Part shown: positions 28,401 through 33,520 of the stretch, in pieces
How the letters are laid out: every line of letters begins with the position of its first letter
How positions within the stretch are numbered: position 1 is the first letter of the stretch
DNA from: Patagioenas fasciata
Taxonomy: Eukaryota > Chordata > Aves > Columbiformes > Columbidae
Direction of reading: 5' to 3'
Assembly: GCF_037038585.1 (NCBI RefSeq)
Contig: NC_092523.1
Location: 32,217,501-32,281,500 of the forward strand
DNA: 64,000 nt
Notes under the pieces: generated by a model
Told to the model about the DNA's origin: nothing
Database searches by the model: none
Seen by the model: only the letters and a program-made list of their open reading frames with translations
Position numbers and translations under genes: made by a program

Positions 28401-31400
28401 AGGCACCAGGAAGCAAATACAAACATCAGCGCTGCCAGGAATGATATTATTGTCTCTATTTGGGCCTGAGGGCTGGTAGATTAACGCATAATTGCCTTGG
28501 GGCCAAAGAGCAGAAGGACAGATTTCTGAGTCAGTCCTAGGAAGGGCTACCAGATAAAAAGGCTGTTTGTAAGAAAGTATTGGAGAGGTCAGGACTGAGG
28601 TGTTGGCTGGGATGCTCATGAGATCCAAAACCATGTTAAACCACAGAAGAGCAGTGATTCTTAAACTGAGATCTTAACTAGTTAATAAGTTTTTTGTATT
28701 AGAGCTACAGTGACAGCTTGCCTTGGATGTTGTTAATGCTGCAATGAAGGCAGGGCCACATGGCTGAAGGGCTAATGCTCTGGGCAGTTTTCACTAATCC
28801 CTGTCACACACCCTGTGGATTACATTCCTAGCGGAGCCACATTGCAGAGGATAAACTTAGAGGATCAACTTTTTTTCAGTATTAATCTGTGTCATCAGCA
28901 GATGACAGCCAAGAAGTCTGCACTGCGCCTTATGAAAGCACATACATGGAGATGTCAAATGTCTGACTCCTCAATACAACATCACCCACAGATGCCACAC
29001 ATGAATATACTATTAAAGAAAAGACTTTCATACTTCAGCTCTCGTCTCTCCTTCTGGCTGTTACACAGGAAATTCCCAAACTGGCAGGAATAGATGTGAT
29101 GCTGTATGTGGATGAGGAACCTCTCATTGAACTCAAAGGCACAAGGAAACTGTTCCATCAACTGCCAAACACACTCGATGAACTGGTCAATAACAGGGGA
29201 TATCTCCTTCGGATCTCCATCTAAATTGCCATATCTAAACAAGATAAGATACATTCCGTTATAACCAGGAAAACTGAATTAACAGCAATGAAAACAAATA
29301 TTTGCATTTAGTATACAAGTTCCATCATAGGCATTCATTTCTAAAATCTCAACTACTAGAAGATTTTTATTTACAAAAATTCATGGAGCAGAATGAAGGC
29401 AGAGTTTATCAAGCATAAATAAAGAAAACAAAAAGCCACAAAACATTTACAAGTGTTTTGTTGCCTTACAGTTACTAACAGCTGCCTGCTGCATAGCCAT
29501 GTTTTAACGCTATTAATATAAAGTTATGCCGAAGTAACATAAGTCATCATAAGAATGACTGCAACGACTTTAAAAACCAAGCTTAGACCTTCTCTCAATG
29601 GCGGACCATTGCCAAAATCAGAAAACTGAACAGGAGAGGAACAGAAAAAGCTTGGCAGAAAACAGTTTAAAGCTGCCCTCTCTTGGTGAAATTTTTAGAA
29701 AGTGGTAAATGTTTAACATGCTACTGTGTATGTCAAGTGAACATCAAATGTTCTATCTATAGAGATGTCTTTTGGAACCACCTGCAATGGGGTACCTTGA
29801 AGAACAGGAGCCTGAAAATATGAAACACATAGAAGTAAAAAAAAATTTATAAATATGAAAAATATTTATAATATTTTTATAAGAAGAAGCACTTTCAATC
29901 AATTATTCTGCTTATCATGTGTGTACGTGCATGCAGAATGGAACTCCATAAACATCTAAAACTGAAACCTCTAATTCTATTATTATTATGCATCACAGAG
30001 AATATAGCAATATGGTGCTGCAAACCAAAGCTATCAGTGGTGATTACATTTAATAATATCTTCCACAACTGATAATAATAGATATCTGACTGTATCATAT
30101 TAACTGTAGTAATTCTTGCTGGAATTTCACAGGTGGTGTGGAGCTGCACAGTTTTCCTGAAAGTTTTCTTGGTGTTTTTTGGAAACTAGAACATGAATTT
30201 TTATTCAAATCAAGCAATATAATGTAATTATATTCCAGTATAAAAATCACGTTTTATATTTTTACGGAAAATAAAAGGAAATACAAAAAAGAAGGAAAGT
30301 GTGGATATTTATCCGTGTTTGAACATATGGAGTCTTCAAATATTTTAATCACATTATAGTACTCATATAATGGATGTACAAAATAGCTTGTCCAGATAGA
30401 TAACTTTCCACTTCCCTTTACGTGATATTTCCGAACAAATCCTACTGTTTTCGTTTGAACAGAGGATAATGGGAAGAGTGTATTTTTTACATGCTACATA
30501 ACTTGCAGACATGCCTAAGATTAAGTACTGTCCTGCAAGATGTAGTCTTTGCTGAACAAGGACTTAGGTGGGAAGTCTTGGCACTACTGAAAGATCTGCT
30601 GGAGTCCCAAGGGATTTTGCAAGCCACATACATGCTTTCTTCTCACAGGGATCTCTCAGTGCCTGAGGAAACTGCAAGACCAGCACTCAGAACTGCCAAT
30701 AGCAGTTGTGGAATGCGTATATAAGAAAAGACTGATATGAAAATATTCCCCTTTGATTTTTCCAGGCAGATGAATTGTATAGTAGGAGAAAAGGGTATGG
30801 CTGTTTCCTGAGGGCACGCTGTCGATATGCTTTGATAGGCAACAACCAAGTAAAATTGGAATGGCAGCAGATACAGACTACACAAAAATATCTAGAGAAA
30901 AGCTTAGCACCAGCTTACCTGTGGTTAAATTTGTGACCAAAGGAAACCCAGTCCTTTTCAATTAACACCTAAAATGAGAATATTGCATTCAGTGTTGTAG
31001 AGCAGAGCTAATGTGTTAAGCAGGCAGAAGAGTGGTGTAAACAAGCAGTATTGGAATCCCAGATAATTCTTAGAATAAGCAGAGAAGTTAAAAGTGAGAA
31101 TGATGTAAGAAAGCAGTATTGGAATCCCAGATAATTTTTAGAATAAGCAGAAAAAAAAGGAGTGATGAGCACTGCTGCCAGTTCAAGGGAAAGTAGCACT
31201 CTTCATGGTTGCAGATAGGATGCCAGTATTTCCACACAACTTGAGTTAGCTTGATACATCATTTTCTAAAACAGAACCTAAAAATGTCTGTGGCAGGATG
31301 CAAACCCTCCTCTCTCTCTCTCTGCTGCTTGAGGCTAACAGCTTCTTTTGTTTGGCCCCAGAGCACCCTGGCCAGGGCCATTAGGAGAAGGGAGTGCCGA

Positions 31401-33520
31401 GGCTTCAGGGGCACCCCACAGCCGGTGTGGGGGTGCAGAGAAGCTTCTGGAATGCCTACAGTCAGATCTGATCAGCCTATAAAAACGGGACTCTCGTCGA
31501 GACTCCGCCCATTGTCGCGGGTCTCTCAGAGCACGAGCGAGATGCTGCCGCTGAGAGCCCCCTGCGCAGGATGGAGACTCCGCTTGCCTTGCCACCACGG
31601 GTGTGAGTAAAACTTCTCCTCGCAGGACTGCGAGTGTATTTATACTTCCTGTGCACATATGCACATGTAACTTTCCGTGCTCAATATGAGCACGTGTAAA
31701 ATTAATCCTCGCATAATCACGGGTGTATTTTCCTTCCGTGTTTAATACAAGCATGTGTAACTTTCCGTGCACATTTGCACGCATACTTTCCGTGCTTAAT
31801 ACAAGCATGTGTACTTTCCGTACACATTTGCACATGTAACTTTCTGTGCTCAATACGAGCACATGTATAAATGATTTCCTCGCACAATCGCGAGTGTATT
31901 TTCCTCCCGTGCTTCCACATAAGCATGTGTAATATTCTGTGCACATTTGCACGTGTAAGTAAATTAACCCTCGCAGGATTGTGAGTGTATTCTAGATTTA
32001 CCCTCGCAGAATCACGAGTGTACTAGCTCTCCGTACTCACTACGAGTACGTGTATCTCTTCAAGAATAATCCCGCACTGTGTTCAGGCAACTGTGTACTC
32101 CTCTGGAACTCAGGGATGGCTCCGGCATTGTTTTGGGTGAAGCCACATGCATGCGCTCTGTGGACCTCCTGTTGTATTAGTTGCTGCCTCTTAATAATTT
32201 TCCTCAACTGATATCCGAACCTGTATTTAAGTCACTTTTGGAGTGCTAAAACCCTGTTTCTCACCAGTATAATAAAAGTTGTTTTGGACCCTGTTGTCCC
32301 TTAAACTAATCTTGGGGTGCCTCCATGACAATGTCTCTAACGTCTTTTTAACATGTGACCAGTAACTTGATAAGCAGCATTCCTAGCTTCTTTACCAATA
32401 CTGATTTGCTTGAGAAAGGAACAGATTTTCCAACACAGCTGTTCATTGCAGTCTAATGTCTAAGGAGCACACACTTCTGACACTCAAAATTTGACTGATC
32501 CTTGAAAATTAATACAAATTATTGCTTGCATGAAAGCTCCTTGGGATATGAGAAAGCTCCTTGGTCAAGGTTAGGGAAAACATAGTGGGTGCCCAACTGA
32601 TTCCCACCTCTGATGACATTTCATACAGAAACTGGAAGACTGTAATTTGGACACATAAAAACTCTCCTTTCTAAATAAAATTTTTTAAAAAAGTATATTT
32701 AAGAAAAGTTTATTTCCCATTAAAAATAAAGACATATATCTTTAATGATGCATAATACTTCATTTACTCTGTGAAAGAGAACCTGCTTACCATGAATCCC
32801 TTCATAGTTCTGTAATATGGATCCAAGAGAAGGCTTGCTACAGAGCAAACCTGGGCTGTCCTATCCCAGCCATCAGAGCAGTGAACAAGCACACTCACAC
32901 CTTCCTCAGCCACAGCCTAAAGAGACAGGAAAAAGTCAGAAATTTCACAAGCAGAGAGAAAGGCAATGGTAGGTAAGAGATAGCACAATATAGAGAGTAT
33001 CAGTGTGGGAACTGGGAAACCTTGTTAATTTCTTTATTCTGCCACAGAGTTCTCAAATTACATTGAGTGTTATTCCTCTCATTTGAAAAGTCTTAATCTT
33101 TTCGCATCCCATGCAATATGGTGGCTGCAGCATCACCTGTTTATGCTCCACTACAGGAGGATGTGGGATCTGTTTCAACAAAAATACATCAGTTTGCCAG
33201 AGCGGACAGCTGCTTAGAGCAGATTCAGATGCTGCTAATGCTCAAATTAATAAACCAGCAACAGAACAGCCATATTTGCAATATGGCTCTTTATTTCCCT
33301 TCTTGATGCTAATATCGATAAAGGCAATGTCTGTTTCCGATGCCAGTGCTAGCACAGATGTTATTACAGCACACTGCATTGCACACTGATGAAGGTTTGT
33401 GTGGTGATACTGGTAAACTTCCACATCTAATAAGCAAGATTATATTAGCGTCTTTAATGTAAACAGCTAGGGAGACACTAAGTTCTCCGAAGTCTGCTGT
33501 TGCATTATTTTTAAAACTTG

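Follow-up and report, generated by a model that had tools for sequence, protein, structure and literature searches.

A row of fifteen non-identical hairpin units within the long terminal repeat of an endogenous retrovirus family in Patagioenas fasciata

We have analyzed a stretch of 64,000 nucleotides of the genome of Patagioenas fasciata (RefSeq assembly GCF_037038585.1, contig NC_092523.1, positions 32,217,501 to 32,281,500 of the forward strand), here called the window. At 31617-32054 on the + strand it contains a row of 15 non-identical palindromic units, all in one orientation as judged by their tails, and this array belongs to the long terminal repeat (LTR) of a large endogenous retrovirus (ERV) family. 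The likeliest single reading, to which we give a probability of roughly 0.37 and which is only just ahead of a minisatellite rival, is that the array would be a transcribed, multivalent RNA element made of hairpins and linkers. A first-pass annotation made from the sequence alone had described about 15 non-identical hairpins spaced about 28 bases apart. With unit boundaries placed by hand, we count 15 units at start-to-start distances of 25-37 bases (mean 29.4), and their hairpin content is far above that of shuffled controls.

Hairpins were counted by a template-free scan that required a stem of at least 5 Watson-Crick pairs and a loop of 3-8 bases. The array holds 10 of them, whereas 1000 dinucleotide shuffles average 2.39 and never exceed 8. 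By this count it is the top tile among 636 in the window, and no other tile reaches 10. Eight of the 10 hairpins coincide with the stem of an individual unit (1, 2, 3, 6, 9, 10, 12 and 15); the other two differ, one bridging units 7 and 8 and one being an alternative pairing within unit 11 and its tail. The fold energy of 31600-32070 has a z score of -6.87, which none of 100 shuffles equals. For 31508-32290, the segment proposed for folding in the first-pass annotation, z is -4.61 and none of 20 shuffles folds as well. The arms of a unit score 5.3 of 6 with each other and 3.9 when swapped (G.U counted as half), and none of 20000 permutations across all units matches the observed score; when swaps are confined within the three classes used in that test, the fraction reaching it is 0.07. 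Rfam gave no match at the gathering score anywhere in the window.

The class order of the 15 units is A B C A C B C B C A E B A A F, all on the + strand. Class A comprises units 1 (31619-31634), 4 (31708-31723), 10 (31879-31894), 13 (31970-31985) and 14 (32003-32018), and class B units 2 (31650-31665), 6 (31766-31781, with the tail CATA in place of TGTA), 8 (31819-31834) and 12 (31938-31953). To class C belong units 3 (31676-31694, with an 8-bp stem), 5 (31737-31755, a place held by class E in most copies of set 1, defined below), 7 (31791-31809) and 9 (31845-31863). Unit 11 (31908-31927) is of class E and unit 15 (32032-32050) of class F; both were counted as class C in the earlier three-class arm-swap test. 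A mismatch or G.U occurs among the six outer pairs in nine units (4, 5, 7, 8, 10, 11, 12, 13 and 14), and the window copy of the LTR is a decayed copy. Among 37 copies, the form observed most often, alone or in a tie, is fully paired in 10 of the 15 units (1, 2, 3, 5, 6, 8, 9, 11, 13 and 15), carries one G.U in units 7 and 12, and in units 4, 10 and 14 retains an A.C adjoining the loop, or worse.

The genome (1.45 Gb in 359 contigs) was searched with two queries. The LTR gave 2363 first-look candidates, the best 40 of which were scored (set 1). The 3' flank gave 2448, of which the best 40 were scored and 30 loci cut out, including the window locus (set 2). Both samples consist of best-scoring copies and are thus biased toward the window's kind. 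An array was obtained from 69 of the 70 sampled loci, the exception being L057, which lacks the 5' flank, and 62 of these arrays are distinct. Loci L076-L100 stand outside the 70-locus counts; one of them, L100 (an LTR on contig C24), has a similar row of units by eye. The template-free scan finds a mean of 9.1 hairpins per distinct array versus 2.1 after shuffling, and for 59 of the 62 the observed count is above that of all 100 shuffles. Unit number ranges from 6 to 16 across the sampled arrays: 32 of 35 distinct arrays of set 1 parse to 15 units and three to 14, and the 27 distinct arrays of set 2 span 6 to 16. Among pairs with 3' flanks less than 3% apart the unit string differs in 42 of 48, and unit number already differs between copies whose 3' flanks diverge by only 1.5%.

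Such ready change in unit number favors a tentative but serious alternative, namely that the array is a functionless palindromic minisatellite, whose units are gained and lost by slippage, by strand transfer during reverse transcription or by unequal exchange and whose arms are kept complementary by quasipalindrome correction and not by selection. In quasipalindrome correction one arm is copied from the other by template switching. Parsing with templates gave 825 units from the 62 distinct arrays (A 321, B 212, C 143, E 98, F 48 and G 3); these templates are palindromic, so that statistics by class are biased toward palindromes, a weakness of any argument for structure drawn from them and one of which the template-free scans are free. 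In the five main classes the stem is mostly preceded by a pyrimidine-C and followed by TGTA. The tail is TGTA in 633 of the 825 units and this is the commonest tail in every class. A flank common to all main classes is unneeded for slippage and so speaks against a functionless minisatellite, as does the scarcity, by eye, of half units other than at the last position of some copies, although neither point is decisive. Hybrid units that join a left half of class E to a right half of class B, seen by eye in L050 and L069, favor it. One unit of L071 combines an ACAATC loop, seen in class A, with the CGTGC/GCACG stem of class B.

That the arms vary between units and yet stay complementary, as had been claimed, is borne out by a comparison of classes. 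Their stems differ by paired changes (CTCGC/GCGAG, CGTGC/GCACG and CGTAC/GTACG), the exchanges seen being T-A/G-C, C-G/T-A, A-T/T-A and G-C/A-T. Over all units 84.8% of the outer five pairs are Watson-Crick, versus 67.4% (maximum 69.3%) after shuffling of the 3' arms. Within class C none of 1000 within-class shuffles reaches the whole-stem score, and at the innermost pair 69 of 143 units have C-G and 61 have T-A. A double change at a single site is best exemplified by array position 3, where among arrays beginning ABCA the innermost pair is C-G in 32 of 34 from set 1 and T-A in 18 of 25 from set 2.

Changes from copy to copy within a unit are of another kind, mostly uncompensated CpG decay, with nearly equal products (TG in 105 cells and CA in 100, at pair 1 of classes B, C, E and F and pair 3 of class A). 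We take uncompensated within-unit change to be neutral decay after insertion, as expected of dead copies, and such changes therefore say little for or against structure in a live element. Covariation among copies of one unit was rejected as evidence of structure, since the variation is chiefly CpG decay. The first-pass annotation held that arms mutating without compensation in other copies would refute the structure. This is largely what is found within units, whereas between classes and between sample sets compensated change is seen; with the within-unit decay taken as neutral, the outcome neither supports nor refutes structure in a once-active element. A rate of arm substitution below that of the loops was not found: outside CpG the arms are about as variable as loops (p 0.71) and spacers (p 0.70), as a functionless minisatellite would have it, and slightly less variable than the remaining LTR (p 0.03).

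Under the reading that we favor, the array would be transcribed in an active element within a long repeat region (R), extending from TATAAAAA at 31478 to a poly(A) site after 32271, and would directly follow a splice-donor-like site. A multivalent RNA element would be formed by the short hairpins and the linkers with UGUA between them, and a protein of the element or the host may bind the row on unspliced RNA, in packaging, export or 3'-end formation. The first-pass annotation had proposed, as possible roles, an RNA export, packaging or stability element, an array for protein binding, or a safeguard against silencing. Selection would then act on hairpin shape and linker, not on stem sequence or exact unit number, and unit number may change because, as we propose, slippage or template switching between units can occur during reverse transcription. 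Somewhat more doubtful than a functionless repeat is the proposal that the LTR carries an evolvable hairpin minisatellite, a variable number of hairpin-UGUA modules selected for structure and valency, not for sequence, as a multivalent RNA-binding platform on genomic RNA.

Several results weigh against a transcribed hairpin-linker element. Covariation within classes other than C is weak or absent: shuffles reach the observed score in 11 of 1000 cases for class A and 84 of 1000 for class B, and classes E and F show no excess at all (442 and 505 of 1000). The double change at position 3 could be mimicked by replacement of the whole unit. Single hairpins are weak, with + strand class means of -4.4 to -7.1 kcal/mol (shuffled -0.8 to -1.3), and they face competition from pairing between units. 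In the 10 of 62 arrays run, 2 to 8 units per array exceed an own-stem probability of 0.5, compared with 6 to 11 in the same arrays when the pairing span is limited to 60. One guessed pattern for a spliced junction of LTR and internal sequence had no match in the genome. Nor is the sense strand distinguished by its folding: the minus strand of 31600-32070 folds equally well (z -6.88), a likeness of the two strands that also suits a functionless minisatellite, and in each of the five classes the antisense strand gives single units a slightly better fold. Outside pair positions that hold a CpG, A.C cells outnumber G.U cells on the + strand by 346 to 83, and A.C is a mismatch in sense RNA that becomes G.U only on the antisense strand.

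The last two observations raise the possibility, to our minds an improbable one, that it is the antisense strand in which the structure operates, either as an antisense LTR transcript or as minus-strand complementary DNA copied from R in reverse transcription. Pair 6 of class A, which is A-T in 145, A.C in 155 and G-C in 17 of 321 units, has a wobble path only in antisense, and the longest stop-free frame is longer in antisense (median 93 versus 60 amino acids in the 62 arrays). Against this, most A.C cells adjoin the loop, where pairing may not matter, and pair 2 of class A shows the reverse, with T.G in 32 of 321 units. As to the frames themselves, the longest antisense frame over R5 plus array reaches at least 100 amino acids in 28 of the 62 arrays, and in the window a stop-free antisense frame of 218 amino acids (31335-31991, minus strand) spans most of the array. 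This frame has one relative, P0001 (160 amino acids, 37% identity), in another assembly; two further protein searches along this route brought nothing new. The best-scoring match to P0001 among 95 fetched loci has 58% identity, and P0001 may thus come from another lineage or species.

The host of the array is a solo LTR of 1042 bp at 31289-32330 (+ strand, TGTGGCAGG...CATGACA), delimited by copy alignments and by a flanking target site duplication of 5 bp, ATGTC, at 31284-31288 on the left and 32331-32335 on the right. In 36 of the 40 loci of set 1 the best alignment runs to LTR base 1042; it stops at 1041 in one locus and at 1035 in the other three. When the 70 loci were examined, an exact 5-bp duplication was found in 50 of the 62 with a recognised start, or in 44 of 56 after counting repeated places once (the window locus, present twice, L025-L029 and L061/L062). 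Together with the TG...CA ends and a pol region linked to the family, described below, the duplication confirms the earlier assignment of the array to a retroviral LTR.

That the array would be transcribed at both ends of the element's RNA, as the first-pass annotation held, is less secure, and the choice of promoter is the pivot between the readings. The array does lie between a first TATA box candidate, TATAAAAA at 31478-31485, and the poly(A) signal AATAAA at 32271-32276 (both + strand), as first annotated. A second candidate on the same strand, TATTTAAG at 32224-32231, would as promoter put the array in U3, to the detriment of the RNA reading. Segment 31476-31488, which holds the first candidate, has 25 distinct forms in the 37 copies and is absent from three. 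TATTTAAG, 47 bases upstream of AATAAA, is kept in 35 of 37. The putative splice-donor-like site GTGAGT (31603-31608, + strand), directly upstream of the array, is GGTGTGAGTAAAA or TGTGTGAGTAAAA in 31 of 37. On one map with the second promoter, R would measure about 40 bases and the array would be a row of palindromic binding sites in U3, acting as an enhancer at the DNA level, an explanation that we consider unlikely. Undecayed units of classes B, C and E form CACGTG, an E-box motif, across arm and tail. The commonest class, A, and class F make none, the window copy retains only two, and the arms change too freely between classes for a single DNA site. The conservation of TATTTAAG and the CpG richness of the array (observed/expected 1.2 versus 0.27 in the whole window) are in keeping with an enhancer, and passages of a study of HML2 place the start of its transcripts close to AATAAA (PMC2664473). 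Loci L037, L040 and L044, which begin at 31519, were set aside as evidence for a nearby start site; they may be mere truncations.

The internal region was approached through a pattern with the LTR start behind GGGG, which gave 20 rows at 17 distinct places in the genome. Five of the 17, all of them on contig C47, share one internal sequence ahead of the LTR start. Two of the loci, L095 and L096, look like mutual duplicates. In L098, three separate open frames encode reverse transcriptase, RNase H and integrase, with RVT_1, RT_RNaseH_2, RNase_H and rve above Pfam cut-offs, and this internal piece terminates at the start of the 3' LTR. About 0.73 kb separates the end of the integrase frame from the LTR; in a search for env the single frame scanned there (96 amino acids, in this one piece) had no Pfam match. 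This result and the 5-bp duplications may point to an ERVL-like element, although a 5-bp target duplication fits some class I elements as well as ERVL or class III. At the other end, one copy (L097) shows the end of the 5' LTR followed by six T, then a primer-site-like TGGCATAGTCGAGCAGGAT, which we take to resemble tRNA-Ser, and soon after a frame led by ATG and lacking a Pfam match. This frame begins about 33 bases past the LTR end, so that the leader would be nearly all LTR. One match to a primer-site pattern was taken as chance; the pattern was unable to catch the site of L097. At L090/L099 (contig C47, about 50.70 Mb) the LTR is rearranged at its position 909/910, where about 0.5 kb of internal 3' end and the LTR start are found. 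An origin of this locus by reverse transcription of spliced RNA was rejected, as the internal similarity seems to continue upstream of the acceptor.

No LTR with such an array was known to the first annotator, and we found none described in the literature, as covered by open-licence papers. One pattern scan of IMG/VR gave a single match in each of five contigs, which we attribute to chance, and another gave none. The nearest parallel in layout is the 3' untranslated region of alfalfa mosaic virus and the ilarviruses, for which excerpts of two papers describe a series of short hairpins with a conserved four-base spacer, AUGC there as compared with UGUA here (PMC5382211, PMC5504059). The stem-loops at the 3' end of alfalfa mosaic virus, separated by AUGC, bind coat protein, according to a passage in the former (PMC5382211). 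These are unrelated positive-strand plant RNA viruses in which protein binding is reported, while the LTR array, with 6 to 16 units in our sample, is known from sequence; the resemblance would be one of layout and not of kinship.

Among retroviruses, RNA structure in R has been tied to 3'-end formation and gene regulation in the sections of PMC2664473 used here, and the residual conservation of the long R of gammaretroviruses, class III elements and lentiviruses to stem-loops in those of PMC3601003. As far as these excerpts go, structured R regions, such as the Rex-responsive element of human T-cell leukemia virus 1, the lentiviral TAR and poly(A) stem-loops and the HML stem-loop, have one or a few stem-loops, unlike the row of modular units here. 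The distance from TATA to AATAAA in class III elements is about 180 bp in the part of PMC3601003 consulted, versus about 790 in the array LTR, should the first TATA be the one in use. Structured R regions are known separately from LTRs that bear tandem repeats; the array consists of interchangeable hairpins with compensated stems. In LTRs of the ERV9/LTR12 type, variable-number tandem subrepeats are repeats of binding sites. They resemble the array in being short repeats of variable number in an LTR, but the units of the array are different palindromes with compensated arms. With their 6 to 16 units, the natural copies would offer an allelic series in which the number of RNA-binding modules required by a retroelement could be studied, and the array family could help to show whether LTRs keep palindromic minisatellites through selection or acquire them as a by-product of reverse transcription.

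Some copies of the LTR appear to have spread by duplication of larger blocks, as near-identical copies with the same flanks occur on contigs C29 (L037, L040 and L044) and C47 (L025-L029). Contigs C23, C24 and C25 hold at least 22 equal-scoring matches to the 5' part of the LTR among the matches listed, and on C23 and C24 six of 19 successive gaps between such matches measure 38.4-38.7 kb. Such spacing would fit a long tandem unit with a single LTR copy in it, possibly ribosomal DNA. The LTR of the window sits in an intron of a minus-strand myotubularin-related gene, in opposite orientation to the gene; three exon peptides from the window, when joined, match MTMR6 and MTMR8. A direct duplication of 68 bp lies at 31029-31165, shortly before the start of the LTR.
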